64,000 nt of DNA, taken from contig WLMW01000001.1 of NCBI GenBank assembly GCA_009700025.1, positions 18,915-82,914 on the forward strand, in the 5' to 3' direction. Below, one piece after another: positions 43,027 to 62,140 of the stretch (the stretch's first letter is position 1; every line of letters starts with the position of its first letter). The notes under the pieces were generated by a model. The model was not told the DNA's origin. It worked only from the letters and a program-made list of their open reading frames with translations, and ran no database searches. The DNA comes from Actinomycetota bacterium (GTDB taxonomy: Bacteria > Actinomycetota > Actinomycetes > Nanopelagicales > Nanopelagicaceae). A program made the position numbers and the translations under genes.

Positions 43027-43098
43027 CGCAGCATGGATTTCAAGCTAACTGAACTCGATGCTCTTGCGGTGATTTAACACCTGTGTCAGAGTTCTAGA

Positions 43099-44076
43099 AT
43101 GCCTCACCATTCAGAGTTAGTTGAAATTCCTGGGACTGAAATCGAACTTTCTCGGTATAGCTTGGGTACGGCCCCGCTATCAGGCCTTTTTAAAAAAGTA
43201 TCCGAGCAAGAAAGCGATCATGTAGTGCAATGCGCACTCAATAGTGGCATGAACTATTTTGATACAGCTCCTTTGTATGGATCAGGAGTTGGTGAGACAA
43301 GGTTAGGGTGAATATTAAGTCAGACGAGCAAGCCATTTGTTATCTCTACAAAAGTTGGAAGAGTACTTACTCCAGGTAGAAATCCAGAGGCGACGAAATG
43401 GCCTGATTCAGACCCAGAAATAAGGGCTGAATTTGATTACACACCAGACGGAATTAAGCGCTCACTTGAAGAGAGTTTAATTCGACTTAATTTAGATCAC
43501 GTTGACATCGTATACATACACGAACCGGATGATTTAGTCACAGAAGCAGTAGAGGTTGTCTTTCCAGTCTTAGATGACTTGCGACGACAAGGGATTATTA
43601 AAGCTATTGGAATCGGAATAAATAATTGCGCACCAGCAGTAGCGATCATGAATGCAGTAGATCTTGACGTAGTATTAATCGCTGGACGGTTCACCCTTTT
43701 AGATCAAAGTGCTCAGCAAGAACTACTGCCGATTGCACTCAAGACAGGTGTCGCTATTGTTGCTGCTGGAGTCTATAACTCTGGAATATTAGCCAATCCA
43801 ATACCTGGAGCACATTTTGATTACGAACCAGCTAGTGCTGAGATATTGCACCGCGCAGAAAAGATTCGTAATTTTCTAAAAGAGAATGGGCTCCCTCTAA
43901 CAGCTGCTGCTTTGCAGTTTCCTCTGAGGCATCCAGCAGTAGTGTCAGTCCTGAATGGATCTGCCAATTTGGCTGAGATTGAGTCCAACATCGCAAATTT
44001 TGACCTGCCGCTTCCTTCTGATCTGTGGGAAAAAATGGAAGGTGCTGGTCTGATTGAACCAATTCTCAGTCTCTGA
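43099..44076 (+). pseudogene. aldo/keto reductase (D-threo-aldose 1-dehydrogenase-like) with an in-frame TGA
   Basis: YFDTAPLYGSGVGETRLG*ILSQTSKPFVISTKVGRVLTPGRN...DIVYIHEPDD... stays in one frame across TGA at 43309-43311. Confidence 0.8.
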
Positions 44077-44959: not shown

Positions 44960-45199
44960 CTAAGCAGTTTCAATACTGACATAAGGAGAACCTGGTGCAA
45001 TCTCATCATCAAGTTTTACTAAAAACTCAATAACGACTCCTGCAACTGGTGATTCAACATCAACAGTGGCTTTGTCAGTTTCTACTGAAAGCAAAATGTC
45101 ACCAGCATTAATCTGTTGCCCAGGTTCCGCTTTAATTTCTACGACGAAAACGGAGTTGACGTTCTCACCGAGTCTTGGCATTTTTACTTTGGTGATCAT
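44960..45199 (-). CDS. stand-alone lipoyl/biotinyl carrier domain
   Basis: 79 aa; MPRLGENVNSVFVVEIKAEPGQQINAGDILLSVETDKATVDVESPVAGVV with ETDKA lipoylation motif; no catalytic E2 domain follows. Confidence 0.9.
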   Translation of the reverse strand: MITKVKMPRLGENVNSVFVVEIKAEPGQQINAGDILLSVETDKATVDVESPVAGVVIEFLVKLDDEIAPGSPYVSIETA

Positions 45200-45221
45200 G
45201 GATATTCCTTTTCTGATTTGG

Positions 45222-46439
45222 TTAGTTGATTAATTTACTATCTCTAAGGGCCTGAATTTCTCCTTGGTCCAGTTGAAGAATCCGTTTGAGAACTTCGTCG
45301 GTATCCGCCCCAAATTTGTGAGCAGATTGTGCCTCAAGGTTATGCGTATTTGCAAAGCGTATTGGGGATGAAATATTTGGCAATTCTCCGATGTCTTCTT
45401 GATCCTTCACGGAAAAAATTGGGTTTGCCTCTGACGCACGGGGGTCATTCGCCAGAAGCTCTGTGAAAGTTTGATACTTTGACCAACTTACATTAAATTT
45501 CTTGAATATTTCACTCAGATCCTTTAAATCAATCGCAGAAATAGCAGGTCTAATGACTTCAGATATTTCTCTTCTAAGTCTGTATCGATCAGCTTCAAGA
45601 TCAAGATTTCCATCATGTTTTTCTTCGATCTCCTTCAGCCCATCTTGGATGTCTAACGAATTCTTGATTGAAACCCATTGCCTAGGAGTGAGGCCGACAA
45701 TCATTACTTCAAAATTATCTCTTGTGGTGAAGTTGGCCCCAAAAGCTCCATACAGAAAGTTTCCATCGGCTTGAATCTTTTCGGTTCCTAAATGTGCTTG
45801 TGATAACCTGCCTAGAGCTCCAACCACTGATAGAGCTACATCTGAAAGAGCAATCTTTATAAATTCTCCTTCACCCGTGGCTCTTCTTTTTCTTTCAGCT
45901 ACGAGGATTGCAATGGCAACCATGTTTCCCAGGATTAAATCCCACGTTGGTAACACGCTATTCACGGGTGCATTCGACCCCAATGGGCCTGTTATTAATG
46001 GATATCCAAAAGCCGGATGCACCGTGTAATCAACTTCGCTTGTGCCATCATAATTTCCCGTGAGGGAAACCATAATCAAATCAGGTCGCTTCTTCTTGAG
46101 TGCTTCGTAACTGAGTTCGTCCTTAGCAGGTAAGTTAGTCAGAAATATTCCTGCGTCTTTGCCCGGAGCGGTTATCAGATCAGAAACAATTTCTCTGCCC
46201 TTGCTTGATTTTAAATCCACCTGAATTGAACTTTTACCTCGGTTAAGTCCAATCCAAAACAAACTCTGGTTCTCATTAGTCACTGGCCAACGGTGGAAAT
46301 CAAGACCACCGCTTAAGTGATCAAATCTAATGACATCAGCACCCAGCTGCGCCAAAGTTAATCCACCCAATGGAGCTGCAACAAATGCTGAGCCTTCAAC
46401 GATCCTCAAATCGCTCAGAGCAGCATTTGGCAAATTCAT
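45222..46439 (-). CDS. mct: CaiB/BaiF (family III) CoA-transferase, mesaconyl-CoA C1-C4 CoA transferase-like
   Basis: LRIVEGSAFVAAPLGGLTLAQLGADVIRFDHLSGGLDFHRWPVTNENQSLFWIGLNRGK and SEVDYTVHPAFGYPLITGP resemble Chloroflexus Mct as I recall it. Confidence 0.82.
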   Translation of the reverse strand: MNLPNAALSDLRIVEGSAFVAAPLGGLTLAQLGADVIRFDHLSGGLDFHRWPVTNENQSLFWIGLNRGKSSIQVDLKSSKGREIVSDLITAPGKDAGIFLTNLPAKDELSYEALKKKRPDLIMVSLTGNYDGTSEVDYTVHPAFGYPLITGPLGSNAPVNSVLPTWDLILGNMVAIAILVAERKRRATGEGEFIKIALSDVALSVVGALGRLSQAHLGTEKIQADGNFLYGAFGANFTTRDNFEVMIVGLTPRQWVSIKNSLDIQDGLKEIEEKHDGNLDLEADRYRLRREISEVIRPAISAIDLKDLSEIFKKFNVSWSKYQTFTELLANDPRASEANPIFSVKDQEDIGELPNISSPIRFANTHNLEAQSAHKFGADTDEVLKRILQLDQGEIQALRDSKLIN

Positions 46440-46441
46440 AA

Positions 46442-46981
46442 TTAGTTCAGTCGGCCTTCAATGGGACCGGTAACTGGAGTGGGGAAGTAGTTCTGTCCAA
46501 TCCCGGAGCTCTTTTTTGGAATCATGACACTTCTATGCCAGGTGACGATTTCAACACCATCTTGGTTTAACCCGCGAGTGAACATCGAAATGATTCCCAT
46601 GTCAGGTTTTGAAGAAGACTCTCGAACCCCTGTACAGATACTCTCTGCATACAGGGTATCTCCAACATAGACGGGATGAGTCAGTTTGATATCAGTCCAG
46701 CCAAGGTTAGCTACTGCATTTTGGCTCATGTCTATGACAGAGATTCCTAGGATGATTGCAACGGTTAAACCTGAATTAACGATGATTTTTCCATTCGAAA
46801 CAGGGTTCGAAAGCGCCAAGTGAGCATTGAAGTGATTTTGATTCGTGTTACATGTTAATTGTGTGAACCACGTACAGTCTGTTTCACTAATAGTTCTACC
46901 AAATGGATGTTCATAAGAATCTCCAACAACGAAATCTTCGAGAAACCTTCCCAGTACTGCTTCGTGCTTAGCCATTTTCAT
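46442..46981 (-). CDS. MaoC-like hydratase/dehydratase (candidate mesaconyl-CoA hydratase)
   Basis: LGRFLEDFVVGDSYEHPFGRTISETDCTWFTQLTCNTNQNHFNA hot-dog fold hydratase motif. Confidence 0.82.
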   Translation of the reverse strand: MKMAKHEAVLGRFLEDFVVGDSYEHPFGRTISETDCTWFTQLTCNTNQNHFNAHLALSNPVSNGKIIVNSGLTVAIILGISVIDMSQNAVANLGWTDIKLTHPVYVGDTLYAESICTGVRESSSKPDMGIISMFTRGLNQDGVEIVTWHRSVMIPKKSSGIGQNYFPTPVTGPIEGRLN

Positions 46982-47924
46982 CTCCTCGTGTTGAAGGTAC
47001 TAACCCACTTGCAATTCCTTTTGCGTATAAACCTTCAGCCATTTTTCTGGACGCTTCATCAATCATCTTTCCCTCGAAAAGTAGCGCACCTTTTTGATTT
47101 GTGTTGGTTGACTCGTTAGCAAAATGTTCGATTATTCTTGCAGCTCCATCAAAAGCCGCCTGGCTTGGAGTAAACGCTGTATTAACTGTTTCAATTTGCC
47201 CTGGATGAATAACCCATTTACCGTCGTAGCCAAGTGCCGCCGAAAGCCTTGATCGATTTACCAGACCTTCAATATTAGAGATATCCGAATACGGTCCGTC
47301 GATGGCCATCAAATTATTTGCCCGTGCTGCAATTAAAATTGACATTAATACGTAGTGATAAGCATCGTCACCTGGAAAGTTAATGGGATTTTCGCCGATA
47401 TGAATAACTTGCATTCCGATACTCGCCGCAAAATCTCCAGGACCAAATATCAGTGCTTCAATTCGATCAGAGGATGATGCGATTTCACCGACACGAGAAA
47501 GCCCGAGCGCGGATTCAATTTGAATTTGTATTCTTATTGATCCAGGATTGAGCTCTCCTGATTTTTCTAATTCAGTAAGTCTCTTGCTTAAATCTCTTAC
47601 TTGTTCGGCTGATTCCACTTTTGGAATAATCAGAGAATTAAGATATTTACCAGCTTGTAGAACTATCGATGAGACATCTTCAATTCCTATAGAAGTGATT
47701 TGTTCATTTACACGCACAGCAACGGTTTTTGATTTGAATCCACCATTAATCAGTACACCAACAACCTTTTCTCTGGCAAGAGTTTTTTCAGATAATGCAA
47801 CGGAGTCTTCGAGATCCAAGAATATTTCATCTACTTCAATGGTTTTTGCTTTCTCAAGCATTTTTATACTTGATCCAGGAACAGCAAGCGTAGATCTCTT
47901 TGGACTTGTATTACTTCTTATCAT
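46968..47924 (-). CDS. HpcH/HpaI/CitE-type lyase (candidate malyl/methylmalyl/citramalyl-CoA lyase)
   Basis: RSTLAVPGSSIKMLEKAKTIEVDEIFLDLEDSVALSEK; GPGDFAASIGM; KWVIHPGQIE. Confidence 0.87.
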   Translation of the reverse strand: MIRSNTSPKRSTLAVPGSSIKMLEKAKTIEVDEIFLDLEDSVALSEKTLAREKVVGVLINGGFKSKTVAVRVNEQITSIGIEDVSSIVLQAGKYLNSLIIPKVESAEQVRDLSKRLTELEKSGELNPGSIRIQIQIESALGLSRVGEIASSSDRIEALIFGPGDFAASIGMQVIHIGENPINFPGDDAYHYVLMSILIAARANNLMAIDGPYSDISNIEGLVNRSRLSAALGYDGKWVIHPGQIETVNTAFTPSQAAFDGAARIIEHFANESTNTNQKGALLFEGKMIDEASRKMAEGLYAKGIASGLVPSTRGDENG

Positions 47925-49056
47925 TTATCTCGCTAACAATCTCTGCTGTGTGTTCGCCTAGTTTAGGCCCGGCAGAGGTGATTTTTCCTGGTGTTTTTGA
48001 CATTCGAGCAACTAAATTCTGCATCAGAATCCCGTCGACGTGGGTGAAACTCTCTCTTGCGATGAAATGTGGATCTTCAATGACTTGTTGCATGTTGTAT
48101 ACGGGAGCTATGGCTGCATCAGCGGCTTCGATTATTCTAATCACCTCTTGCGAAGGCCTAGAGCCAATCCAATTTTGAGTGAGTTCTTCTAGTGCGTCTC
48201 TATTCTCAAACCGAGCTTGAAATGATTGGAATCGTGGGTCCCCACCGCCGCCAAGGGTTTCAATCAATCTGCCAGCAACTGATTCGGCTGAAGCCGAAAG
48301 TGCAACCCACACCCCATCAGAACATTGATATGTGCCTCTAGGAATTGAGTAGGGAATGCTCGAACCTAAGCGTGGCTGCAAGTAACCCAAAGAATCCCAA
48401 GCAGCGGGCAGCGGTCCCATGATTTGCAGAACTGAATCAACGAGATCGATATCAACGACCTGCCCTTGACCTGTTTGCTTCGCGTGAAAAATCGCCATCA
48501 TCGCCGAGAAAGATCCGACGAGAGCAGTTACTTCATCGGTGAGCGCAATAGGTGGGAGCAGAGGTCCTCCATCAGGTTCACCTAGTAAACCTGATAAACC
48601 AGATAAGGCTTCAGCAATCGTTGCAAAGCCAGGTTTTTGCGCATATGGACCTGTCTGCCCAAAACCAGAAACTCTTAAAATTACTAACTTTGGATTGCGC
48701 TTAATTAGCTCATCTGGATCTAACCCTAAATGTTCGAGTTTTCCAGGACGCATATTTTCAATGAGCAAGTCTGCAGTGGAAATTAATTCCAGCAGTATCT
48801 CTAACTCTGATTGCTGCTTCAAATCAAGAACAACTGAACGCTTTCCACGGTTTACAAGTTTCCACCATAAAGAATCGGTTTCTCCTGGACGTGTCCAACC
48901 CATGCTTCGCGTTGAATCACCAGATGGTCGTTCAATTTTTATTACATCTGCGCCGTAGTCAGCAAAATATTTTGCTACACCTGGTCCTGCAACCACAGTT
49001 GCTAAATCAATAACCTTGATGCCCACTAGTGGGCCTTGGCGATCTCTATTTCCCAT
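47911..49056 (-). CDS. CaiB/BaiF (family III) CoA-transferase
   Basis: LVGIKVIDLATVVAGPGVAKYFADYGADVIKIERPSGDSTRSMGW. Confidence 0.92.
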   Translation of the reverse strand: MGNRDRQGPLVGIKVIDLATVVAGPGVAKYFADYGADVIKIERPSGDSTRSMGWTRPGETDSLWWKLVNRGKRSVVLDLKQQSELEILLELISTADLLIENMRPGKLEHLGLDPDELIKRNPKLVILRVSGFGQTGPYAQKPGFATIAEALSGLSGLLGEPDGGPLLPPIALTDEVTALVGSFSAMMAIFHAKQTGQGQVVDIDLVDSVLQIMGPLPAAWDSLGYLQPRLGSSIPYSIPRGTYQCSDGVWVALSASAESVAGRLIETLGGGGDPRFQSFQARFENRDALEELTQNWIGSRPSQEVIRIIEAADAAIAPVYNMQQVIEDPHFIARESFTHVDGILMQNLVARMSKTPGKITSAGPKLGEHTAEIVSEINDKK

Positions 49057-49541
49057 TAGTTTGCCGGCTTAAGGGGAAGTAATACCGCACGTTCAAATAT
49101 GCAGACGACGTCACCATTTTGGTTTGTGCCAGTCGTTTTTACTGTGAGGATACCTTGATTGGGTTTGCTATTAGAAACTCGTTTTTCCAAGATTTCAGTA
49201 TGGGCATAAATAGTGTCGCCATGAAATACGGGGAGTATGTGCTTAAGCTCTTTAACTCCCAAACTTGCAATTGCTTTACCCGATATATCACTCACTGACA
49301 TTCCAGTTAACAAGGCGTAAATATATGTTCCAAGAACTAAATTCTTGCCACTAGGTAATTCATTTTTTGCATAATTACTATCTACGTGGATTGGACTGCC
49401 GGCCATAGTCAGCATGCTAAATATATGATCTTCGGATTCAGTAATTGTCTTGCCGGGCCAGTGCTTATAGATATCTCCAACTTCAAATTCGTCAAAGAAG
49501 CGGCCATAGCGATCAGAACGAGCGTCAAATTCGCGTGTCAT
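49056..49541 (-). CDS. MaoC-like dehydratase
   Basis: GRFFDEFEVGDIYKHWPGKTITESEDHIFSMLTMAGSPIHVDSNYA. Confidence 0.88.
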   Translation of the reverse strand: MTREFDARSDRYGRFFDEFEVGDIYKHWPGKTITESEDHIFSMLTMAGSPIHVDSNYAKNELPSGKNLVLGTYIYALLTGMSVSDISGKAIASLGVKELKHILPVFHGDTIYAHTEILEKRVSNSKPNQGILTVKTTGTNQNGDVVCIFERAVLLPLKPAN

Positions 49542-49579: not shown

Positions 49580-49642
49580 AACATACAGAAAAGGCGATTT
49601 TTAGTCAATCGGTTGACTAAGCACTGCTCTCTACTTTATATT
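49580..49642. promoter_or_regulatory. candidate divergent promoters sharing an operator
   Basis: Plus: TTGACT (49613-49618)-N18-TATATT (49637-49642). Minus: TTGACT (complement of 49603-49608)-N17-TATGTT (complement of 49580-49585). Confidence 0.6.
49601..49620. promoter_or_regulatory. LacI-type operator candidate, site 1
   Basis: TTAGTCAATCGGTTGACTAA; 8-bp inverted arms around TCGG, in a divergent intergenic region; identical to 53987-54006. Confidence 0.75.
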
Positions 49643-49648
49643 TCATTT

Positions 49649-50785
49649 GTGTCTAATTCTAAGGTCACTCAACTAAACGCCGCAACAGTTGAGGCAGAGT
49701 TACCAGCCCCTGTTGTGTTTGGCGATTGGATAATGCGTACTCGCGAATTTGCAGTAGTCAGAGTGGTTTTAAGTTCTGGGGTTGAAGGTTGGGCTTTTGG
49801 ACTTACTCGTGATGGTGCCATTGCTGAGCAAATCAGAAAAACATTGCGAAACATATATGTAGGTACTTTCTCAAAGGACTTGGAAACTACTTTTAAAATC
49901 GCTCAACGCCGGAGTTTGGCATCACATTCAGCTGGTGTAGGTCTCAGAGCTCTTTCTCTCGTTGATTTAGCAATGTGGGATGCATGTGCAAAAGAGGCGG
50001 GTCAATCCATTGCAAAGTTCTTAAGTGGAGATAGACCTAAAATGCCAGCAACTGCAATCATTGGTTACCCCCCGGCCACCATGGGGCCACAGGAAGTCTT
50101 TGATCAAGTTACAGATTTATACGCTCAAGGCTGGCGAAGATTTAAAGCACCGGTAGGAACAAGTAATCAAGCTACGGCCGACAGACTTCTTGCTGCAAGA
50201 AAAGCAGCACCTGATGCATGGATCGGCTGTGATGCTGCATGGATTTATAACGATGTTCCATCCGCATTAGAGCTTTTAGATTTATTACAGGAAGTCAATC
50301 TGGGGTGGTTTGAAGATATTTTTCCACCTGGTAATGCTCAAGTTGTTGCAGATCTAAGAAAAAGTACAAATATTCCAATCGCAATGGGCGATGAACAAGG
50401 GGGGATATATTACCCAGAAGCGCTAATCGCAAAAAATGCTGTCGATGTAGTCCGAATTGATTTAACGTGCATGGGCGGGATAACGGGCGGTAGAAGAATT
50501 GTGGATGAGTGTTTGAGCGCAAATGTAAGCTTTGCCGCTCATATGTTTGCCCATGTGCATAGCCAAGTTTTTGGTGCTTGGGGCTTTACGGAAGTTCCGA
50601 TTGAGTGGGGAGTTCCTTGGACAGGGGTCGATCCTTATGCAGATAGTTTAGAGCAGCCAAAAATTGTGGCCGGCGGACTCATGAAGCCGCTCAGTGAAAA
50701 ACCTGGATTTGGTGATTTGGTAAATTTTGATTGGATAAAGACACAGAAATGCGTAGACCCAGAAGGGATTTTAGTAAGTAAATGA
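49649..50785 (+). CDS. mandelate racemase/enolase-superfamily sugar-acid dehydratase (paralog A)
   Basis: LPAPVVFGDWIMRTREFAVVRV..., RFKAPVG, WIGCDAAW, WFEDIFPPGN, AMGDEQGG; GTG start. Confidence 0.85.
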   Translation: MSNSKVTQLNAATVEAELPAPVVFGDWIMRTREFAVVRVVLSSGVEGWAFGLTRDGAIAEQIRKTLRNIYVGTFSKDLETTFKIAQRRSLASHSAGVGLRALSLVDLAMWDACAKEAGQSIAKFLSGDRPKMPATAIIGYPPATMGPQEVFDQVTDLYAQGWRRFKAPVGTSNQATADRLLAARKAAPDAWIGCDAAWIYNDVPSALELLDLLQEVNLGWFEDIFPPGNAQVVADLRKSTNIPIAMGDEQGGIYYPEALIAKNAVDVVRIDLTCMGGITGGRRIVDECLSANVSFAAHMFAHVHSQVFGAWGFTEVPIEWGVPWTGVDPYADSLEQPKIVAGGLMKPLSEKPGFGDLVNFDWIKTQKCVDPEGILVSK

Positions 50786-51648
50786 AACTTGCATGCGGAG
50801 ACCATAGTTTTCCATTACTAGATCATGAGTCCACTATAGATTTAATTGCTGGGATGGGTTTTGAGGGTTTTGATCTAGCACTGATGGGTAATCGTTCACA
50901 CATTAGACCAGAACACATTCGCAGTGATATCCCATTGGCTGCAGACACAATTGGAAAATCTATTCGCCGCCGAGGTTTAGAAATAAGTGATGTTTTTTCT
51001 ATACCTTGGACAACTTTTGACACCATGGCACCTAATAATCCTGATCCAGAAGAAAAAATTGCTTCACGCAAATTATTTGAAGATCTTCTTGAGTTCACCC
51101 TGCGCATAAAGGCTCCAGGTATCACTATGGTTCCTGGAATTGATTTCGAAACTCTTGGTCATGAGAGATCCTTAGAATTAGCTGCAGAGGAGTTGCAGTG
51201 GCGTGCGGCAAAAATGAAAACCGAAGGCCTCCGCTTTAGTGTTGAGTGCCATATTGGCTCGGTTGCTGCGTCACCAGAAGATGTTTTGACTTTACTTAGC
51301 CTTGCACCAGATCTTAAATTAACATTGGATTACACACACTTTATTGCTCCGGGTTATTTGCAAGAAGATATTGATCGTCTTGCTCCATACGCTGGCCATG
51401 CTCAAATTCGCGGTGGACGTCCAGGGGCAGGTCAGTGCTCCATGAAAGAGAACACTATTGATTATGAATCTGTAGTTTCTGTGTTAGATCAATCTGGTTA
51501 CGACGGCTATCTTGCAGTTGAATACGTTTGGATTGATTGGGAAAATATGAATCGTTGCGACATTGTCTCGGAAAGTGTTTTGATGCGGGATCGCCTTAAG
51601 GCCGCTTTGGCTGGAGAAAAGTGGACTTATCCGGAGTCTTCAACTTAA
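50782..51648 (+). CDS. sugar phosphate isomerase/epimerase, TIM-barrel
   Basis: KLACGDHSFPLLDHESTIDLIAGMGFEGFDLALMG; VECHIGSVAASPED; LTLDYTHFIAPG; GYDGYLAVEYVWID. Confidence 0.85.
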   Translation: MKLACGDHSFPLLDHESTIDLIAGMGFEGFDLALMGNRSHIRPEHIRSDIPLAADTIGKSIRRRGLEISDVFSIPWTTFDTMAPNNPDPEEKIASRKLFEDLLEFTLRIKAPGITMVPGIDFETLGHERSLELAAEELQWRAAKMKTEGLRFSVECHIGSVAASPEDVLTLLSLAPDLKLTLDYTHFIAPGYLQEDIDRLAPYAGHAQIRGGRPGAGQCSMKENTIDYESVVSVLDQSGYDGYLAVEYVWIDWENMNRCDIVSESVLMRDRLKAALAGEKWTYPESST

Positions 51649-51665
51649 TTTGTTACTGTAATTCG

Positions 51666-52247
51666 TTAGTGAAGCGAACTATCTGCATCACCAATAGTCC
51701 ATGATGTGAACTCACCAATTAAATTAGGCCCAGTTGGCGCGCAAAGATACGGTCCTGCTTGCCATAATAAATTCTCATTTAATGGTGCTACACGAACCAT
51801 TTGAAAATCACCATCAGATTTTGCTCGAATCGTCAGTGCATTACCTTGGCGACTCGCCCGAATAGTTACTAGTTTGCCAAACCACTCTGACACTGGCGCG
51901 GTAGACCAGTCGGAATTATTAATCGTAACTACTGCCCCTAGTTGTGGAGTTCCATCAGATTGCTCAACAGAGGCTTTAGTCCAATTTTCCTCATCTGCAT
52001 AAACAAAAATTCCACATTGATCAAAATTTTGTGTGTAGTTCAGTCGAAATGTAACCTCCATCGCGGTACCGTCGTCAAAACTTCTCAGTAATGCGTGGCC
52101 ATCATCATGCACAAAGTTATAAGAAGTATTTCTCCACCAATCACTACCTTCGGCGGCCTTCACTAGAAGGTGGCCTTCGTTATTTTCCAAAGAGACAGGA
52201 TCCCGTGACCAGTTTCCTGAAGTCCAACTAAGCGAGCGACTATTCAC
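51666..52247 (-). CDS. DUF1349-type (concanavalin-like) protein
   Basis: WWRNTSYNFVHDDGHALLRSF...MEVTFRLNYTQNFDQCGIFVYADEENWTKASVE; GTG at 52247 preceded by AAGGAG. Confidence 0.75.
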   Translation of the reverse strand: MNSRSLSWTSGNWSRDPVSLENNEGHLLVKAAEGSDWWRNTSYNFVHDDGHALLRSFDDGTAMEVTFRLNYTQNFDQCGIFVYADEENWTKASVEQSDGTPQLGAVVTINNSDWSTAPVSEWFGKLVTIRASRQGNALTIRAKSDGDFQMVRVAPLNENLLWQAGPYLCAPTGPNLIGEFTSWTIGDADSSLH

Positions 52248-52339
52248 AATAATCTCCTTGCTATTTGCTGCCTGATAGAAGTCTTTCGGCATGCCCTTTT
52301 GAAGCCCAAATACTGCTAAGAAGTGAGTCAAACTCCTTA

Positions 52340-52855
52340 TTAAATCGAGAAGTAGGTGCTGACACAGTTAATGCTGCAATCAAATGTATCGAGATTGAAG
52401 ATGTCAGTGAAGAACAATGGCAAAATCACATGGACTCCAACGTTAATGCAACCTTTTTTCTCTCCCGGGCGGCAGCGAACATTATGAAAGGCCAAGACTT
52501 TGGCGGAAAAATAATTCTGATGTCATCTGTTGCTTGGTTATCAGGTGGCATGTCCACACGTTTGCCATATGCAACGACTAAAGGTGCAGTCACCACAATG
52601 GCCAGAGGATTGGCTAAAGCTTATGGGCCTTATGGAATAACAGTGAATACAGTTGCCCCAGGATTAATTGATACCGCCATGATGCGAAAAGGTTTAAGTG
52701 ATTCTGCACGAAGCCAAATGGAAGAGGCAACCCCGCTCAAGCGCTTTGGTACTCCTGAAGAGGTGGCATCGGTCATCGTTTTTCTTGCTTCGGATGGTGC
52801 GAGTTTTATTTCTGGGGCGACAATAAACGTGTCAGGTGGGTTTACCCTCTATTGA
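52340..52855 (+). pseudogene. SDR family oxidoreductase, 5'-truncated
   Basis: Homology-like segment begins at VNAAIKCIEIEDVSEEQWQ...; YATTKG catalytic motif and C-terminus present, but no Rossmann GxxxGxG N-terminus upstream. Confidence 0.75.
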
Positions 52856-52938
52856 TTCAGGGGCTCTTTTGTATTGATTCCGACTACACTAAGAGTGGTT
52901 CGTAGAGTGCGAGCAGTCCACGGAATAAGGGGTGCAAG

Positions 52939-53979
52939 GTGGCTAGAAACAGTGATTTAGCTAGCGCTAAACCCCAAAGAGCAACTATTCGTGACGTAGC
53001 CCGAATAGCCAAAGTCGATCCAAGTCTGGTTTCAAGAATTGTAAATAACGATCCAAAAGCTAGTGCAACGTTAGCAACCAGAAAACGAGTTCTAGATGCA
53101 GTTGAAGAGTTAGGATATCGAGCTAACTCGGCTGCACGAATGCTAAAAACTGCTCGTACGCAGATGATCGGTCTCCTTTTACCAGATTTTTCTAATCCCA
53201 TGTATTCAGCAATTATCTCTGGAGTTGAAAAACGGTGTACAGAGATTGGGTATGGAGTTTTGCTCGGCGATCATGCTGAGGGTCACTCCGAAAAAACCTT
53301 CACAGATTTACTTGAAAGTGGTCAAGTCGATGGACTTCTCATTGCCTCAGGAACTCTTCCTGACTCATTTTTAAAAAATAATATTTTAAATCACCATGCT
53401 TCAGTTGTGATGATAAATAGAAGAGTAAGAGGCGCAGATGCCAGCGTGATTGTAAAAGACGAACTCGGGGCAGAGCTTGCAGTCCAACATCTTTCACAGT
53501 ATGGAACAAAGACAATTACTGGAATTTTTGGTCACCGAAATGTTGATACCGCCCAGCGTCGTAAAAAGGGTTTTGAGAGTGCTGCTGAAAAATTTGGGCT
53601 TAAACATCAGAGTATCGAAGTGGCATCTTGGGGCATGGAGGACGGCAGAAAAGTCGGAGTTGAACTTTTAAGTAAGAAAGTAATACCTGATGCCGTATTT
53701 GCTTCAACCATCATGATGGGAATTGGATTCTTAAGAGCGGCACACGAGATGTCGATTAAAATTCCAGAGGATTTACGGGTGGTCGCACTTCACGATAGTC
53801 CGATCGCTAATTACCTCACCCCATCCCTTACAACTATTAATCTTCCGACCATTGAGATGGGTGCGCAGGCAGTCGACTTGCTGGTCAGCATGATGAATGG
53901 AGGTTCACCACGGAACATGGTGGTGAGTGATCTTCCGACCTTGACTATTCGCGAGTCATCGCGCTTGGATATTGATTAG
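52939..53979 (+). CDS. LacI family transcriptional regulator
   Basis: RATIRDVARIAKVDPSLVSRIVNNDPKASATLATRKRVLDAVEELGYRANSAARML; C-terminal periplasmic-binding-protein-like domain; GTG start. Confidence 0.93.
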   Translation: MARNSDLASAKPQRATIRDVARIAKVDPSLVSRIVNNDPKASATLATRKRVLDAVEELGYRANSAARMLKTARTQMIGLLLPDFSNPMYSAIISGVEKRCTEIGYGVLLGDHAEGHSEKTFTDLLESGQVDGLLIASGTLPDSFLKNNILNHHASVVMINRRVRGADASVIVKDELGAELAVQHLSQYGTKTITGIFGHRNVDTAQRRKKGFESAAEKFGLKHQSIEVASWGMEDGRKVGVELLSKKVIPDAVFASTIMMGIGFLRAAHEMSIKIPEDLRVVALHDSPIANYLTPSLTTINLPTIEMGAQAVDLLVSMMNGGSPRNMVVSDLPTLTIRESSRLDID

Positions 53980-53986
53980 ATCGAAT

Positions 53987-54006
53987 TTAGTCAATCGGTT
54001 GACTAA
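53987..54006. promoter_or_regulatory. LacI-type operator candidate, site 2
   Basis: TTAGTCAATCGGTTGACTAA, identical to site 1; between lacI-type gene and the VOC gene. Confidence 0.75.
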
Positions 54007-54068
54007 ATATAGCCTTTCTAATAGCCTGAGCGTTATTATCGCAAAATGACACGAAAGGGGCTTGCTGG

Positions 54069-54542
54069 ATGGCACAGATAACCAAAGCTCATCACACTGG
54101 AATATCTGTGCGCTCTTTAAAAGAGTCAACAAAGTTTTATAAAGAACTTTTAGGTTTTGAAGAGGTTTTTTCTTGGAATCCACAAGCAGATTACATTGGA
54201 GTTCTTACAGGTTATCCCGAGGTAAATCTCAATGCAACTATTCTAAAAATGCCAGGAGTGGAGATTTTTCTAGAGCTTTTAGAGTATGGAAATGTTGATC
54301 TCAAGACAATTGATCACGGAAATGCTAACCCTGGGATTGCTCACATAGCTTTTTTTGTTGATGATGTTGATGAGTGGTACACAATCTTGACAAGTAAAGG
54401 TGTTAAAAGTGTTTCAGAACCCGTGACTCCCACGATAGGTCCAAATAAAGGCGGCCGTGCAATCTATATGATTGATCCAGATGGTGTCAGGGTGGAGTTA
54501 ATTCAAAGTTCACAATCTTTCGGTGAGTATAAGGGGGAGTAA
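54069..54542 (+). CDS. VOC (glyoxalase/bleomycin resistance) family protein
   Basis: KAHHTGISVRSLKESTKFYKELLGFEEVF...IDPDGVRVELIQ. Confidence 0.88.
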   Translation: MAQITKAHHTGISVRSLKESTKFYKELLGFEEVFSWNPQADYIGVLTGYPEVNLNATILKMPGVEIFLELLEYGNVDLKTIDHGNANPGIAHIAFFVDDVDEWYTILTSKGVKSVSEPVTPTIGPNKGGRAIYMIDPDGVRVELIQSSQSFGEYKGE

Positions 54543-54546
54543 AAAT

Positions 54547-54828
54547 ATGGAGTTTATGGTGCACATTAAAAATACTTTCCCAGCTGATGGAAGTAAAGAA
54601 CTTCTGACACAGTTAGTTAAGCAAGAAGGTGAGAGAGCTGCTGAACTAGCTGCCCAAGGAGTAATTAAAAAGCTTTGGCGAAGAGCAGGCCAAAAATCAA
54701 ATGTTGGAATCTGGATAGCAGCTGATGCAACTCAGTTACATTCGGCGATATCGAGTTTACCTTTCTTCCCTTGGCTTGAAGTTGAAGTCTGGCCATTAGC
54801 TGAACATCCAAATGACCCAAAGAAATAG
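54547..54828 (+). CDS. muconolactone delta-isomerase (CatC)-like small protein
   Basis: MEFMVHIKNTFPADGSKELLTQLVKQEGERAAELAAQGVIKKLWRRAGQKSNVGIWIAADATQLHSAISSLPFFPWLEVEVWPLAEHP. Confidence 0.82.
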   Translation: MEFMVHIKNTFPADGSKELLTQLVKQEGERAAELAAQGVIKKLWRRAGQKSNVGIWIAADATQLHSAISSLPFFPWLEVEVWPLAEHPNDPKK

Positions 54829-54839
54829 GGAGATCTCAA

Positions 54840-55844
54840 ATGACTGTAATGCGAACTCGTCAGGCTGTTATTCAGGCGTTATCGGATGAGCTTGAAAGCG
54901 ACCCAACGGTTTTCTTGATGGGCGAAGACATTGGTTCGGGGGGTCCATTCAAAGCCACTGAAGGTCTGATTGAAAAATTTGGAGAAGAGCGCGTTATCGA
55001 TACGCCAATTTCTGAGATGGCTTTTCTAGGTGCTGGCGTTGGCGCAGCTGCGATGGGCATGCGTCCAGTTGTAGAGATGATGTTCATTGAGTTTATTGGC
55101 GTTGCTCTCGATCAACTCACTACACAAGGGGCTTTTTACCGGTACCTGTCGAGAGGCGCTTATCAAGTCCCGCTAACAATTCGCGCTGCAGCTGGTGCAG
55201 GAATGGGTTTTGGTTGTCAACATTCTCAGATTCTAGATCAGTGGTTTAGAGGCAATGCCGGAATAAGTCTGGTTATTCCTTCGAGTCCACAGTCGATGTA
55301 TGGACTTTTAAGAAGTGCTATTAGAAGCAATGATCCAGTCGTAGTTCTTGAACATAAAGCTTTGTATGGTGAGCGCGGCGATGTCATTACGGGTGAAGCA
55401 GGAATAATCCCAATCGGTCAAGCAAATGTAATTACTGAAGGTACAGATTTAACTATCGTAGCAATTGGTAGCACTGTACATACAGCCAAGGCAGCAATGG
55501 AATCACAAAGTGAATGGAGCGCTGACATAATCGATCTTCAGACTTTAATTCCATGGGATAAAGCAACAGTTATGAAGAGTGTCGCCAAGACCGGACGCCT
55601 GGTGATTGTAGAAGAGAGTTCTTATTCCGGAGGTTGGGGCAGTGAGATTTCCTCAGAGGTTGTTTCACAGTTGTGGGGAAAACTTAAAGCTCCGCCGCAT
55701 CGCATAACTTCTCCGGATGCTCCAATTCCATATGCGCAAGAGTTAGAAAAGCGCTACTTACCAAGTCCTGAATATGTAACTTCTCAAATTAGTGAATTGC
55801 TAAAAACTGGTAAATGTCCAGCACCATGGTGGGAGGGGTTTTAA
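54840..55844 (+). CDS. 2-oxoacid dehydrogenase E1 component, beta subunit
   Basis: TVMRTRQAVIQALSDELESDPTVFLMGEDIGSGGPFKATEGLIEKFGEERVIDTPISE. Confidence 0.92.
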   Translation: MTVMRTRQAVIQALSDELESDPTVFLMGEDIGSGGPFKATEGLIEKFGEERVIDTPISEMAFLGAGVGAAAMGMRPVVEMMFIEFIGVALDQLTTQGAFYRYLSRGAYQVPLTIRAAAGAGMGFGCQHSQILDQWFRGNAGISLVIPSSPQSMYGLLRSAIRSNDPVVVLEHKALYGERGDVITGEAGIIPIGQANVITEGTDLTIVAIGSTVHTAKAAMESQSEWSADIIDLQTLIPWDKATVMKSVAKTGRLVIVEESSYSGGWGSEISSEVVSQLWGKLKAPPHRITSPDAPIPYAQELEKRYLPSPEYVTSQISELLKTGKCPAPWWEGF

Positions 55845-55846
55845 GA

Positions 55847-56833
55847 ATGACTACATCACTAATTCGTCGTCAAGCATTAGATACAGAGCTCGGACGTCTT
55901 GAAAGAATGCTTGAAATCCGTGCAGTGGAAGAAAGTATTCAGACTCTTTATAACGACGGTCATGTGCGCGGTAGTACCCACTTAGCAAATGGACAAGAAG
56001 CCATTTCGGTTGGAATCGCAAGTATTTTGCGGCCAACAGATGTTGTCACGTGTACTTATCGTGGCCACGCAACTGCATTGGCTTTAGGTGTTTCTCCTGA
56101 AGGAGTTCTTGGAGAAATCTGCGGACGAGTAATCGGTTGCTCTGGCGGCTTGGGTGGATCAATGCACCTCATGGATGCCAGCGTCGGACTTATGCCAACG
56201 TTTGCCATCGTTGGTGCGGGCTTGCCAGTGGCAGCTGGCGTGGCTCTTGCAGCCAAACTGAAAAAGAATGACTCTGTTGCTCTTACTATTTTTGGAGATG
56301 GCTCAACCAATATTGGCGCTTTCCATGAAACATTGAACATGGCAAGCATATTCAAACTCCCAATAGTTTTTGTCATTGAAAATAACTTATATGGTGAGTA
56401 CACGAGAATTAACCTCAGTACTCCAATTAGCGATTTAGCTGACCGTGCCGATTCTTACGCGATGCGAAAAGAAATAGTAGATGGCCAAGATATTGATGCA
56501 GTCCGTGCGTCAATATCAGCAGCTGTTAAGTATGCACGCGAAGGAAATGGTCCATCACTTATTGAAGCTAAGACTTATCGATATAGCGGCCACTCGCGTT
56601 CAGACCCAGCGACCTACCGTTTACCTGGCGAACTTGATGAGTGGAAGAAACGCGATCCTTTGGATATTGCGGCAGCAAAGCTGATCTCAAATGGAACCAT
56701 AACTGGCCAGGATTTAGAAAAGTTGAAATCTGAAATCGACACTCGAGTTGCAAAAGCTATTGAGACTGTTCTCGCTAGCGATGGTCCTTCACTAGAGGCA
56801 CTCATGCAACACGTGAGTGCGAGCCGGAAGTAG
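55847..56833 (+). CDS. 2-oxoacid dehydrogenase E1 component, alpha subunit
   Basis: TPP motif FGDGSTNIGAFHETLNMASIFKLPIVFVIENN; YRGHATALALGV; YRYSGHSRSDPATYR. Confidence 0.93.
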   Translation: MTTSLIRRQALDTELGRLERMLEIRAVEESIQTLYNDGHVRGSTHLANGQEAISVGIASILRPTDVVTCTYRGHATALALGVSPEGVLGEICGRVIGCSGGLGGSMHLMDASVGLMPTFAIVGAGLPVAAGVALAAKLKKNDSVALTIFGDGSTNIGAFHETLNMASIFKLPIVFVIENNLYGEYTRINLSTPISDLADRADSYAMRKEIVDGQDIDAVRASISAAVKYAREGNGPSLIEAKTYRYSGHSRSDPATYRLPGELDEWKKRDPLDIAAAKLISNGTITGQDLEKLKSEIDTRVAKAIETVLASDGPSLEALMQHVSASRK

Positions 56834-56840
56834 TTATTAA

Positions 56841-57638
56841 ATGAGTGAAGACGATCTAGTTCCTGTTGATTATGCAAAAAACCTTTTTAATTTGCATGGT
56901 CGCACTGCAGTCGTAACTGGTGGTGGGAGTGGATTAGGCGCTGCAATAGCAATCGGATATGCCCAAGTAGGCGTAAAGGTTGCATTGTTAGACGTGAATG
57001 AGCAGGGCATGAAAGCCACGCAAGCAATCATTGAGTCGCAGGGTGGAATTGCTAAGAGCTTTACTTGTGATGTGACTTCAAAGGAAAATCTACAATCAGT
57101 ATCCGATCAGATTGTTACTGAATTTTCAAGCGCGGATATTTTAGTAAATAGTGCAGGCTCAGCTTTTAGGTGTCCAGCTGAAGATTTTCCAGAGGATAAA
57201 CTGGACTTTATTCTCAACCTCAATCTAAAAGGAACCTATCTAGCTGGTCAGGTTTTTGGCAATGTGATGCTTAAGCAGGGCAAAGGAAGCATTATTAATA
57301 TTGCATCCATTGGTGGTTTTAATGCGTACCCTCTAGCAAGCGCTTACTTGGCTTCTAAAGGTGGAGTTGTGCAGTTAACAAAGTCATTTGCGCTTGAGTG
57401 GGGTAGCCGAGGTGTTCGCGTCAATGGCATTGGCCCAACTCTGATGGATTCTCCGCTTACAAAAGCCGGTGCAGCAACATCATCTATAACTGCTGACTTC
57501 ATCAAGTCCAGAATGCTCAGAGACCGACTTGGCCTGCCACGCGAACTAGTGGGAGCTGCAATTTTCTTAGGCAGTGATGCATCGCTATTGGTTAATGGTC
57601 ACACAATTATGTGTGACGACGGATACTTGATTGCATAA
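56841..57638 (+). CDS. SDR family oxidoreductase
   Basis: AVVTGGGSGLGAAIAIGYAQVG; SAYLASKGG; GSDASLLVNGHTIMCDDGYLIA. Confidence 0.9.
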   Translation: MSEDDLVPVDYAKNLFNLHGRTAVVTGGGSGLGAAIAIGYAQVGVKVALLDVNEQGMKATQAIIESQGGIAKSFTCDVTSKENLQSVSDQIVTEFSSADILVNSAGSAFRCPAEDFPEDKLDFILNLNLKGTYLAGQVFGNVMLKQGKGSIINIASIGGFNAYPLASAYLASKGGVVQLTKSFALEWGSRGVRVNGIGPTLMDSPLTKAGAATSSITADFIKSRMLRDRLGLPRELVGAAIFLGSDASLLVNGHTIMCDDGYLIA

Positions 57639-57641
57639 TAG

Positions 57642-58781
57642 ATGAAGATTACTAGCGTCCGCGTAGCAACAATTAACCACATACTTCCTGTGCCGATTAT
57701 TTACGGCAATTGGATAATGGATCATCGAGAGTTTGCTTTAGTGCGCGTTGATTTAGAGGATGGTACCGCTGGTTTTGCATATGGATTAACTCGAGATGGC
57801 CCCATTGCATCGATAGTTCACCGTTCAATCGCGCCTTGTTATGTTGGCAGAGAGATTGATGACCCACAACAGGTCTTTTATGGAGCTTTGTGGACTAATC
57901 ACGCAGTGCACGCTGGTGGAATCGGAATGAGAGCTCTTTCATTAGTTGATATCGCCTGCTGGGATGCACTTGCGAGGCACAAAAATAAATCATTTCAAGA
58001 AATTCTTGGCGGGGAGTTATCTGAACTACCTGCTACAGCAATTGTGGGATACCCGCCAACAATGCCTGCGGATGAGCTTGCAGAGCAGATTGTCGAGTTA
58101 CAGAAAAAAGGTTGGAATCGTTTCAAGATACCGATTTCACCCGATCTAGAGTTTTCTGAATTACGTTTACGAGCCGCACGTGAAGCTGCGCCCAATGACT
58201 GGATTGGTTTTGACATTAATATGGTTTTGCGAACAAGTGAGGCAGTCCTTGAATTCGAAAGTAAAGTCAGAGATTTGAAGTTAGGTTGGATCGAAGATGT
58301 TGTACCGCCAGGTGATGCTGAGATGGTTGCACGAGTAAGACGCGGTTCAAAAACACCCATTGCAATGGGAGATGAGCAAGGTGGTGCTTACCATCCAGAA
58401 GCTCTTCTTACTGCTAATGCAGTTGATGTTATTCGAGTTGACGCAACTACAAATGGTGGAATAACTGGACTCCGTAAATCCCTTGCGCAAGCAAAACTAG
58501 CTAATGTAAAAGTGTCTCCACACATGTTTCCACATTTGCATTCACGGCTTCTGCCGATTTTAGGATTTAAAGATGTTCCTATCGAATGGGGGATTCCAGG
58601 TACTGGGGTGCATCCAATGGATGACGGGTTGGAGCAACCGGTCATTATTGACGGAAAAATGAAACCGCTGGCAACTTCAATAGGTTTGGGCAAAATAGTT
58701 GATTACGATTGGATAACGAAACAGCAGGTTAGTGATGAGCATGGAGCGCTAGCGAATATTCCCACAACCTGCCTCAAATAA
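57642..58781 (+). CDS. mandelate racemase/enolase-superfamily sugar-acid dehydratase (paralog B)
   Basis: LPVPIIYGNWIMDHREFALVRVDLEDGTAGFAYGLTRDGPIA, RFKIPIS, WIEDVVPPGDAEM, AMGDEQGG; clearly related to 49649-50785. Confidence 0.86.
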   Translation: MKITSVRVATINHILPVPIIYGNWIMDHREFALVRVDLEDGTAGFAYGLTRDGPIASIVHRSIAPCYVGREIDDPQQVFYGALWTNHAVHAGGIGMRALSLVDIACWDALARHKNKSFQEILGGELSELPATAIVGYPPTMPADELAEQIVELQKKGWNRFKIPISPDLEFSELRLRAAREAAPNDWIGFDINMVLRTSEAVLEFESKVRDLKLGWIEDVVPPGDAEMVARVRRGSKTPIAMGDEQGGAYHPEALLTANAVDVIRVDATTNGGITGLRKSLAQAKLANVKVSPHMFPHLHSRLLPILGFKDVPIEWGIPGTGVHPMDDGLEQPVIIDGKMKPLATSIGLGKIVDYDWITKQQVSDEHGALANIPTTCLK

Positions 58782-58825
58782 ACTCAGAAGTTTTTAGATT
58801 TTCCTAAAATTACTCAAAGCTGGCA

Positions 58826-58845
58826 TAGGTCAAACGCTTGACTTA
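58826..58845. promoter_or_regulatory. LacI-type operator candidate, site 3 (diverged)
   Basis: TAGGTCAAACGCTTGACTTA; same GTCAA-N4-TTGAC core and spacing as sites 1 and 2; upstream of an SDR gene. Confidence 0.5.
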
Positions 58846-58948
58846 TGGCTGGTGGAAACCTTAGTGTTTATTCAAAGGCTCAGGTTGAGTCAATTAGAAA
58901 GATCCTTCAGGGGGAATAATGGTTACAAAATCGTAAGAGAGGATAATT

Positions 58949-59734
58949 ATGTTAGATCAAGAATTTAGTAGTGATATCGCAGTTGTTACCGGAGGAGCTG
59001 CTGGACTTGGCCGTGAAATATCTCTCGCACTAGCATTAAGCGGGGCAAAAGTTTTAGCACTCGATGTTGATCTAGTTGGTTTAGAGGAAACGAAGGCAAT
59101 CGCAGCTGAATCTGGCGGAGAAGTAATTATTCTTCAATGTGATGTTGCGGATAGCGAGAAAGTTAAAGAGGCTTTCAAATATGTAGAAAAAGAGTTTGGC
59201 TTGTGCACAATTATGGTAGCAGCAGCTGGAATTGCCTTATATACAGAGTATTTGGCAATGGGTGAAAAGGAGATGGACCGTGCAATCGCTGTAAATCTTA
59301 AGGGACCATTGTTGTGCGCCCAAGAATCACTTCGTCATATGGAAAAAGCTGGCAGGGGAAATATTATTTTTATCTCGTCAGTTCAAGCGGTCATGAGTTT
59401 ATTTGGTTGTGTGGTTTATGCAGCAACTAAGGCGGGATTAATTGCGGCTGCTCGAACATTGTCGCTTGAAACAGGAAAGATGGGAGTTCGTGTAAATACT
59501 ATTTCCCCAGGAACGATTGATACACCAATGCTCGCTCGAGACTTAGCAAGTATGAACCGTGAAGAGGCATCAAAGTTTCTTGAAAAGGTAAAGGCCGCAA
59601 ATGTTCTAGGCCGTATTGGAAAGCCATCAGAAATCGCCGATGCCGTTAAGTATTTATCATCATCTAAAGCGTCATATGTAACGGGCATCGATTTAAGAGT
59701 TGATGCTGGCTTCACAGCATTGAAAGTCATCTAG
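58949..59734 (+). CDS. SDR family oxidoreductase
   Basis: AVVTGGAAGLGREISLALALSGAKVLALDVD; VVYAATKAGLIAAART; VTGIDLRVDAGFTALK. Confidence 0.9.
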   Translation: MLDQEFSSDIAVVTGGAAGLGREISLALALSGAKVLALDVDLVGLEETKAIAAESGGEVIILQCDVADSEKVKEAFKYVEKEFGLCTIMVAAAGIALYTEYLAMGEKEMDRAIAVNLKGPLLCAQESLRHMEKAGRGNIIFISSVQAVMSLFGCVVYAATKAGLIAAARTLSLETGKMGVRVNTISPGTIDTPMLARDLASMNREEASKFLEKVKAANVLGRIGKPSEIADAVKYLSSSKASYVTGIDLRVDAGFTALKVI

Positions 59735-59752
59735 CGGAGATCGGAGGATACC

Positions 59753-60304
59753 TTGGCCACAACTAGAAAAGAGTTTGAAGAAAGACAGGCTTGGACGGCA
59801 AACCAACTTAGGGCAGCAGGTTATCCATTGACGGATGATGAAGAAAGACGCATAGAAGTTGCAGATTTTGGTCTTGGCGAGATTGACCACTTCGGAATTC
59901 AATTGATTACCTACATCAATACCGAACGAGTGTGCTCCAAAGATATAGTCATGAAACCTTGGCAGATTTGTCCTGAGCATCTTCATCCAAATGTGGGCAC
60001 AGAATTGGGTAAAGAGGAGACTTTCCGCTGCAGAAAAGGCTTGGTCTACTTATATGTTCAGGGAGAGCCAACAAACTCTCCATCACATCGACTGCGCGCA
60101 GATGATGAAGGAAAAGTGAGTGTGTTTCACGAAGTAGTTTTGAAGCCAGGAGACCAATACACCATTTTTCCCAATAGTTTGCACTGGTTTCAAGCAGGAG
60201 AAGAAGGGTGCATCGTCACTGAGTTCTCAACAAGCAGTACCGACGGTTCTGATATTTTCACGGACAAAGAAATCATTCGTGCTCCTAAGGTTCCAACACA
60301 ATAG
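59753..60304 (+). CDS. D-lyxose isomerase-like cupin
   Basis: CSKDIVMKPWQICPEHLHPNVGTELGKEETFRCRKGLVYLYVQGEP; GDQYTIFPNSLHWFQAG. Confidence 0.8.
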   Translation: MATTRKEFEERQAWTANQLRAAGYPLTDDEERRIEVADFGLGEIDHFGIQLITYINTERVCSKDIVMKPWQICPEHLHPNVGTELGKEETFRCRKGLVYLYVQGEPTNSPSHRLRADDEGKVSVFHEVVLKPGDQYTIFPNSLHWFQAGEEGCIVTEFSTSSTDGSDIFTDKEIIRAPKVPTQ

Positions 60305-60377
60305 ATTGAAAAAATAGCCTTCATCAAATGATGAAAAGAAGACAACAGTGAAACACGAGCTAGAAAAGGAGACTACG

Positions 60378-61220
60378 ATGAAATACACACTAGATGATGT
60401 ACAAAACCTCGCTTCTGGAATTGATCACTCTGAGGGGATTTGTTTAGGTAAAGATGGAAATCTGTACCTAGGAGGCGAAGCTGGCCAGATTTACCGACTC
60501 ACACAAGAAGGAAATCTGTCTCAAGTCGCCCAACTCGCTGGAGGAGGAATTTTACTAGGATTGACAGCCTGCTTGGACGGTCGTTTAATTGTGTGCGATC
60601 CGGGCAATAGATGCCTTTGGAAAGTTAACGTTGAGGATGATACTTGGACACTGTTTGCCGAAAGTAGTTCGACGGTCAAATTATTTTGTCCTAACTGGGG
60701 TGCATATCTACCCGATGGAAGCTATGTTTTCTCTGATTCCGGAAACTGGAAAGCAGCTGACGGATTCTTAGTTCGGGTATTAGTCAATGGGGATATTGAA
60801 AAGTGGGATTCTCAGTGTCCAGATTTTCCTAATGGCCTTGCGCTTTCAGCAGATGGAAAAGGGTTATATGTACTTGAGAGCACTCCAGGAGCTTTAGTTT
60901 ATATTCCAATTTTAAGCGATGGCTCTGCTGGTACAAAAGAAGTCATTTCTAAAATTCCGGGAGTACCTGATGGTGTGACTGTCACAACAACTGGAGAGCT
61001 AATTATTAGTTGCTATCGGCCAGATACTATTTTCGTCTGGTCGAAGGGTAATGGTTTGGAGATCTTGGTAGGAGATCCAGAGGGAGCAATAGTGGCCGCT
61101 CCAACAAATACTGTATTTGCTGGAACAGCAAGTAAGACTCTTATCTGGCCAAACTTTGCACGTTGGAATGTGTCTAAGTTAGAGACAAGTTACGAAGGAG
61201 TGCCGATTCTCGCCTTCTAA
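60378..61220 (+). CDS. SMP-30/gluconolactonase-like protein
   Basis: HSEGICLGKDGNLYLGGEAGQIYRL; CPDFPNGLALSADGKGLYVLES; VPDGVTV; ATG at 60378 preceded by AAGGAG. Confidence 0.85.
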   Translation: MKYTLDDVQNLASGIDHSEGICLGKDGNLYLGGEAGQIYRLTQEGNLSQVAQLAGGGILLGLTACLDGRLIVCDPGNRCLWKVNVEDDTWTLFAESSSTVKLFCPNWGAYLPDGSYVFSDSGNWKAADGFLVRVLVNGDIEKWDSQCPDFPNGLALSADGKGLYVLESTPGALVYIPILSDGSAGTKEVISKIPGVPDGVTVTTTGELIISCYRPDTIFVWSKGNGLEILVGDPEGAIVAAPTNTVFAGTASKTLIWPNFARWNVSKLETSYEGVPILAF

Positions 61221-61243
61221 GGGTTTGGCGAAGTTACACAACT

Positions 61244-62140
61244 ATGAATTTCATTTCTGAATTACTCGCAGATAACTTAGGGTGGGCAGAAGGCCCAGCG
61301 ATTCTTCCAGATGGCCGCGTGTGCTTTGTAGAGACCTATAGAAGCCAGGTAAGTGTGTGAGAGAAAGGTAAAGGTGTTTCTCAGTACTCATTCACAACAG
61401 GTGGGCCTAATAGTTGTGTTCTTGGAAACGCTGGAGAGCTTTATGTTTGTCAGAATGGTGGAACAACTGGGCCTTGGCGCGCCGACACAATGGTTGAACC
61501 ATCTATTCAAGTTATATTTTCTGAAGGGGAAAATGCACAATTTCTTGCAACAGAGATCGATGGAATTAAGTTTAATGGACCAAATGATTTAGTTTTCGGT
61601 AAAAATGGTTGTCTCTATTTTACTGATCCTGGCACATATAACACGGTAAACCCGGATCCATCGTATATTTTTGAGTTATCACCTAATGGGAAAGGAAGAC
61701 TTCTTGCAGAACTTAAGCCAGCGACATTTCCCAATGGCATAGCAGTGGAAGCAGATGGCTCAATAGTGTGGGCTGAATCGTATTCGGGAATGGTGAGAAG
61801 ATTAAATATTAATACTTTAGCAATTCAAGATATTTGTAAATTACCAGGAGATCACCCAATTGCTGATGGGTTGGCAGTTGCCGAAGATGGAAGATTGTTT
61901 GTTACTACAGTTAACGGCGGCGGAATCGACGTAATTAATTCTGATGGAAGCTATGACCAATTCATTACAGTGGGAAAGATTCCGACAAACTGTGTTTTTT
62001 CAGGAAATGACTTATATGTCACTGATGCAGGCATGTTAGCCAACACTGCGGAGCCTTCTATGGTCGGCCAACTTTGGCGATTGAATAATGTGACACTAGG
62101 CCTGCCTGTTTCGTTTGGTTCTATAGCCTACAGCAGCTAG
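61244..62140 (+). pseudogene. SMP-30/gluconolactonase-like gene interrupted by in-frame TGA
   Basis: MNFISELLADNLGWAEGPAILPDGRVCFVETYRSQVSV*EKGKGVSQYSFTTGGPNSCVLGNAGELYVCQNGG... one frame from 61244 to 62140 except TGA at 61358-61360. Confidence 0.82.

Follow-up and report, generated by a model that had tools for sequence, protein, structure and literature searches.

The LacI-family protein encoded at 52939–53979 (forward strand) of a 64,000-nucleotide stretch of the Actinomycetota bacterium assembly GCA_009700025.1 (contig WLMW01000001.1, family Nanopelagicaceae; hereafter, the window) appears, with a probability of roughly 0.88, to be the local repressor of a single regulon for sugar or sugar-acid catabolism, using operators that overlap −35 boxes. 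The acI freshwater actinobacteria are among the most abundant bacteria of lakes and are hard to culture, and to our knowledge their regulation has hardly been studied. The first-pass annotation of this DNA had noticed an exact 20-mer, TTAGTCAATCGGTTGACTAA, at 49601–49620 (site 1) and again at 53987–54006 (site 2), and 100 dinucleotide shuffles gave no match to it, even allowing three mismatches. Site 1 has a CoA-ester operon to its left and an enolase-superfamily gene (Enol1) to its right; site 2 lies between lacI and a VOC-MIase-E1beta-E1alpha-SDR-enolase unit. Site 3, at 58826–58845, is a variant (TAGGTCAAACGCTTGACTTA) with the core GTCAA-ACGC-TTGAC; like the other two, it was assigned no strand. 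Taken by itself, the GTCAA-N4-TTGAC core does not stand out from chance in the window (5 matches at ≤1 mismatch vs 3.1 expected), so that site 3 is credible only by comparison with relatives, where the same variant follows the second enolase gene (Enol2) in each of the nine loci compared. Sites 1–3 all lie between genes, as had been proposed, and the operator has the form typical of the LacI family: an even 20-bp palindrome with an NCGN centre, kept in all loci.

The gene beside site 2, already read as LacI-type in the first pass, encodes a full-length member of the family. Its product (346 aa) matches the N-terminal LacI-type helix-turn-helix profile PF00356 (41.3 bits, cut-off 27; E 1.3e-10) and the periplasmic-binding-protein-like effector domain PF13377 (111.8 bits, cut-off 26.5; E 4.8e-32), with a recognition helix containing AKVDPSLVSRIVNNDP. 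It shares this architecture with RbsR, CytR, PurR and CcpA, its best NCBIfam and PDB matches, but all scores are far below the equivalog cut-offs, and it is thus none of these: the best NCBIfam model, RbsR (NF047341), gave 188.3 bits vs a cut-off of 382, and the best solved chain is a ribose operon repressor. We found no characterised orthologue. Orthologues occur in several metagenome-assembled genomes (MAGs) at 62–97% identity and at 88% in IMCC19121, a cultivated strain of the acI-A7 tribe (PMC5301498), and their helix-turn-helix is nearly invariant. They came from wider searches of the class, genus and family; the first 36 genomes of the same genus contained none (best 34%), and the wider genus search gave none in the other 130 genomes.

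The sites and the regulator occur together. In 296 genomes of the family, cores of the TCGG type are present in 8/8 of those with an orthologue of the regulator and in 0/288 of those without it (Fisher p = 7.5e-16, uncorrected for phylogeny). All orthologous loci of readable length have the three sites next to equivalent catabolic units, the regulator lying close to its presumed targets: the CoA-ester operon and Enol1 flank site 1, site 2 separates lacI from the VOC unit, and site 3 follows Enol2. Site 1 is conserved in nine orthologous loci, the 14-base core of site 2 is invariant in 10/10, and site 3 keeps its ACGC centre in 9/9. With a single exception (L112), sites 1 and 2 have the centre TCGG and site 3 has ACGC; in L109, which shares its contig with G643, two N interrupt site 1 at its middle, and this site went unscored. 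The comparison in relatives that had been suggested as a check thus showed conserved positions and cores and drifting flanks (98–100% vs 62–70% conservation). Outside the orthologues, the regulators of G527 and G517, only 38–39% identical to that of the window, share its recognition helix VDPSLVSR, and GTCAAACGCTTGAC lies beside the diverged regulators of G527, G517 (one mismatch) and G508 (a partial 42% homologue). This correlation ties the motif to the recognition helix.

The operator arms also read as promoter elements, since each holds TTGACT, which makes a good −35 hexamer. At site 1, the right arm supplies the −35 box TTGACT of a putative promoter towards Enol1 (P1R, 49613–49642, forward; 18-nt spacer, −10 TATATT), and the left arm that of a promoter towards the CoA-ester operon (P1L, 49580–49608, reverse; 17-nt spacer, −10 TATGTT; 9/9 loci). 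Site 2 contains the −35 box TTGACT of P2 (53999–54027, forward; 17-nt spacer, −10 TAGCCT; 10/10 loci) and site 3 that of P3 (58838–58867, forward; 18-nt spacer, −10 TAGTGT; 9/9 loci). Scoring site 1 in both directions and sites 2 and 3 rightwards, we found TANNNT at 17 or 18 nt after TTGACT in 37/37 directions; in one of them (the left side of site 1 in L112), the contig ends before the target gene can be seen. Leftwards from sites 2 and 3, where no gene is served, the score was 0/19, and the background in intergenic DNA is about 4%. The GTG at 49649, shortly after the −10 box of P1R, is most likely the start of Enol1, rather than the TTG at 49445 given by the mechanical list of open reading frames (ORFs), and its transcript may be leaderless or nearly so. 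In the clade of G345, Enol1 is preceded by TTGACT-N17-TACTTT-N6-start codon; the start being only six bases after the −10 box, the mRNA would be leaderless.

This geometry could be taken to mean that the palindrome is just a strong promoter motif, the symmetry of site 1 reflecting a bidirectional promoter, given that the arms fit −35 boxes with properly spaced −10 boxes. We find this very improbable. The idle arms of sites 2 and 3 are as conserved as the promoter arms, which a pure promoter explanation fails to account for, and so is the central CG. Moreover, about 290 related genomes, in which promoters of the sigma-70 type must be numerous, have almost no copies of the motif, and a LacI gene is always adjacent to it. 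Some LacI-family proteins activate transcription, and the direction of control is not readable from sequence; at some sites the regulator might thus act as an activator, or in both ways. We give this little credence, since every island site overlaps the −35 hexamer itself, where a bound protein classically represses by steric hindrance.

The motif had been described as defining an island-wide regulon. The three island sites stand, but the motif is not restricted to the island. We scanned the assembly (1.38 Mb in 69 contigs, 85% complete) and found the exact core GTCAANCGNTTGAC six times: at the three island sites, twice on contig C26 and once on contig C18. The genome-wide scan proposed in the first pass thus revealed no scatter unrelated to the gene set, with all six cores at catabolic operons, and those of C26 and C18 each adjoin a private operon. 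Family genomes lacking both the orthologue and a diverged paralogue had 8 exact cores in 286 genomes, a frequency at which three extra sites in one genome are unexpected by chance (Poisson p about 4e-6). On C26, the cores precede a divergent protein of 694 aa and an ABC sugar transporter, around genes for an SDR and a DUF4432 protein; on C18, the core precedes a P450-SDR-SDR operon (names judged from sequence). At each of the three cores, TTGACT-N17-TANNNT points to the gene. With a threshold of E 1e-60, the other 134 genomes of the genus gave no match to the DUF4432 protein, and the P450 has only relatives of 33–37% identity. The 694-aa protein (L006:10899–12983), transcribed divergently from the SDR operon with the exact core in front, has zero Pfam or NCBIfam matches. 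Both operons probably belong to the regulon, with the caveat that the assignment of these contigs to the genome comes from a draft assembly in 69 pieces. Matches with three mismatches were dropped from the analysis because the degenerate 20-mer gave 15 vs 10 for its reversed control. Also dropped was a two-mismatch match at C68:32367, inside a coding ORF resembling pyruvate phosphate dikinase. The core with two mismatches at C26:13119, without a −10 box at 17–18 nt, was kept only as a possible auxiliary site.

The extra sites raise the question of which protein reads the motif, because the assembly encodes six LacI proteins and C26 carries one of its own, 6–8 kb from its sites. The sites could be operators of such a protein, or of a regulator absent from the assembly, and the diverged paralogues of G527, G508 and G517 apparently share the core. 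We consider this unlikely, if somewhat less so than activation. The other five LacI proteins carry different recognition helices. That of C26 not only has another helix, it also has a different palindrome (TGAAACCGCTTTCA) in a nearby intergenic region. Because of these differences, and because site 3 is kept alongside the window regulator, we rejected the C26 protein as the reader of site 3 and of the C26 sites. Furthermore, the TCGG sites track the orthologue exactly in the 296 genomes, the regulator gene is beside site 2 in every locus with readable gene order, and the nearly complete genomes G228 and G345 have the three sites together with a regulator of the window type.

Some observations weigh against the regulon as proposed here. 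An assembly that is 85% complete could lack a second regulator of like specificity, to which the C26 and C18 sites might answer. In the exceptional locus (L112, genome G594), site 1 has the centre ACGC, so a given site does not always keep its central letters. The orthologous sites are non-independent observations, and the −10 boxes are matches to TANNNT only. Finally, autoregulation is common in the LacI family (72%; PMC4052901), and no core at ≤2 mismatches lies directly upstream of lacI (52855–52939 scanned). In three loci (L068, L100, L114), lacI is downstream of Enol1 in the same direction, where the site 1 promoter could read it.

From the sites, their conservation, their co-occurrence with the regulator, and the promoter geometry, we infer a simple mechanism. 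A dimer of the regulator would most likely bind TTAGTCAA-NCGN-TTGACTAA at sites 1–3. Since the arm itself reads TTGACT, each operator overlaps the −35 box of its promoter, and the repressor, by covering this box, would shut the promoter off. At site 1, where each arm provides the −35 box of one of two back-to-back promoters, a single dimer would silence both, and RNA polymerase could transcribe only one way at any moment. Release of the repressor would be triggered by a sugar or a pathway intermediate. Two further private operons would have joined the regulon, bringing the SDR, the DUF4432 protein, the ABC transporter and the divergent 694-aa protein (C26), and the P450 with two SDRs (C18). 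As for the earlier claim that the regulator controls four units of the island, it is supported by sites flanking equivalent units in relatives and by the tracking of the orthologue by TCGG sites; it needs amendment at site 3, which in relatives seems to drive an ABC transporter that is deleted here.

By the available tests, this system is a local LacI catabolic regulon of the kind surveyed previously (PMC4052901). It shares with these sugar regulons an even 20-bp palindrome with a central CG, a regulator beside its targets, a small number of operons, carbohydrate genes, and sites about 40–115 bp upstream of start codons. It differs from them in that no site is directly upstream of the regulator gene, the arms coincide with −35 boxes, and there are probable extra targets on unlinked contigs. 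In E. coli bidirectional promoters, pseudo-symmetrical DNA engages RNA polymerase both ways, one binding event blocks the other, and the −10 element is shared (PMC12825309). Site 1 resembles them in being pseudo-symmetrical, with two orientations that would be mutually exclusive; however, its −35 boxes are 4 bp apart inside the operator, and separate −10 boxes lie outside, one on each side. Our literature search revealed no report of a LacI-family operator shared by divergent promoters and no paper on LacI operators in acI actinobacteria. The regulator, the operator, the promoters and the catabolic gene set are here tied together by sequence alone, and the cultivated strain IMCC19121 carries the orthologous system. 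With the operator as a guide, the remaining genes of the pathway and its substrate can be sought.

The unusual features of the system are the arms doubling as −35 boxes and, in one clade, a co-varying long palindrome at site 1. In four loci (L068:3707, L100:14037, L101:5794, L114:8079), site 1 is inside a palindrome with arms of about 25 bp that match within each locus except for one pair in the TCGG centre, while their sequence varies between species; in L110 the long palindrome is slightly imperfect. The arms seem to change in concert, as by palindrome correction or a shared constraint. The island contigs L110 and L114 are labelled as MAGs of Betaproteobacteria and Alphaproteobacteria, and the YqhA-like gene of L114 is 93% identical to that of the window; binning or labelling errors are more likely than transfer between phyla.

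The units flanking the sites encode enzymes from which a single pathway may be inferred. The CoA-ester operon (44960–49541, reverse) encodes MaoC2, CoA transferase 2, a CitE-type lyase, MaoC1, CoA transferase 1 and a stand-alone lipoyl domain (PF19315, PF02515, PF03328, PF00364). Enol1 is followed by a xylose-isomerase-like TIM barrel (49649–51648, forward; PF13378/PF02746, PF01261). The unit right of site 2 (54069–58781, forward) encodes VOC, the CatC-like MIase, E1beta, E1alpha, SDR and Enol2. The unit after site 3 (58949–62140, forward) encodes an SDR, a D-lyxose-isomerase-like cupin, whose closest solved chains are D-lyxose isomerases, an SMP-30 lactonase and a second, interrupted SMP-30. 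The families suggest aldose oxidation by SDR and SMP-30, dehydration or cycloisomerisation by the two enolase-superfamily enzymes, a step by E1 and the stand-alone lipoyl domain, and CoA-ester steps by mesaconyl-CoA-hydratase-like and CitE-like enzymes. We abandoned naming the sugar from family models, because those for enolase, SDR and SMP-30 scored far below curated cut-offs or were too general. The stand-alone lipoyl protein (79 aa, 44960–45199) travels with the E1alpha and E1beta genes (54840–56833), and there is no separate E2 catalytic gene among the genes examined.

A broader scenario can be put forward tentatively, the odds being rather against it as a whole. The palindrome of site 1 would be at once a LacI operator and the source of both −35 boxes for a pair of divergent promoters that exclude each other, and one group of relatives would keep its arms of about 25 bp identical by selection or by palindrome correction. 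Acting as one switch, the regulator would govern two competing units of a route that may be undescribed (oxidation of a sugar, dehydration of the enolase type, E1 and lipoyl step, CoA-ester cleavage), and unlinked private operons would have joined via the same operator.

Site 3 has a different neighbourhood in relatives. It is followed by an XylFGH-like ABC transporter in G228 and G502 and by a different one, of the SBP_bac_1 type, in G345 and G643 (types judged from sequence). In L105, about 3.2 kb of ABC transporter genes are at the position where the window has a deletion scar (58919–58940, forward), the start of a binding-protein gene (ATGGTTACAAA) being joined to the end of a permease gene (ATCGTAAGAG) just before the SDR gene. 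We read this scar as the trace of a sugar ABC transporter deleted after site 3 in the window genome. The transporter genes being gone, site 3 is now directly before the SDR, lyxose-isomerase-like and SMP-30 genes. The transporter of C26 may replace the one deleted from the island.

The island looks partly decayed. An aldo/keto reductase gene (43101–44076) and the second SMP-30 gene (61246–62140) are broken by in-frame TGAs at about 43309 and 61361, respectively, which are possibly former tryptophan codons, and the SDR at 52265–52855 is without its N-terminus. An intact tRNA-Tyr and, at the left edge of the island, a degraded tRNA-like copy are present (42252–42336 and 42945–43027). The island of G454 (L101) is likewise near tRNA-Tyr, between YqhA-like and YajQ genes, and a tRNA-linked integration site is possible.

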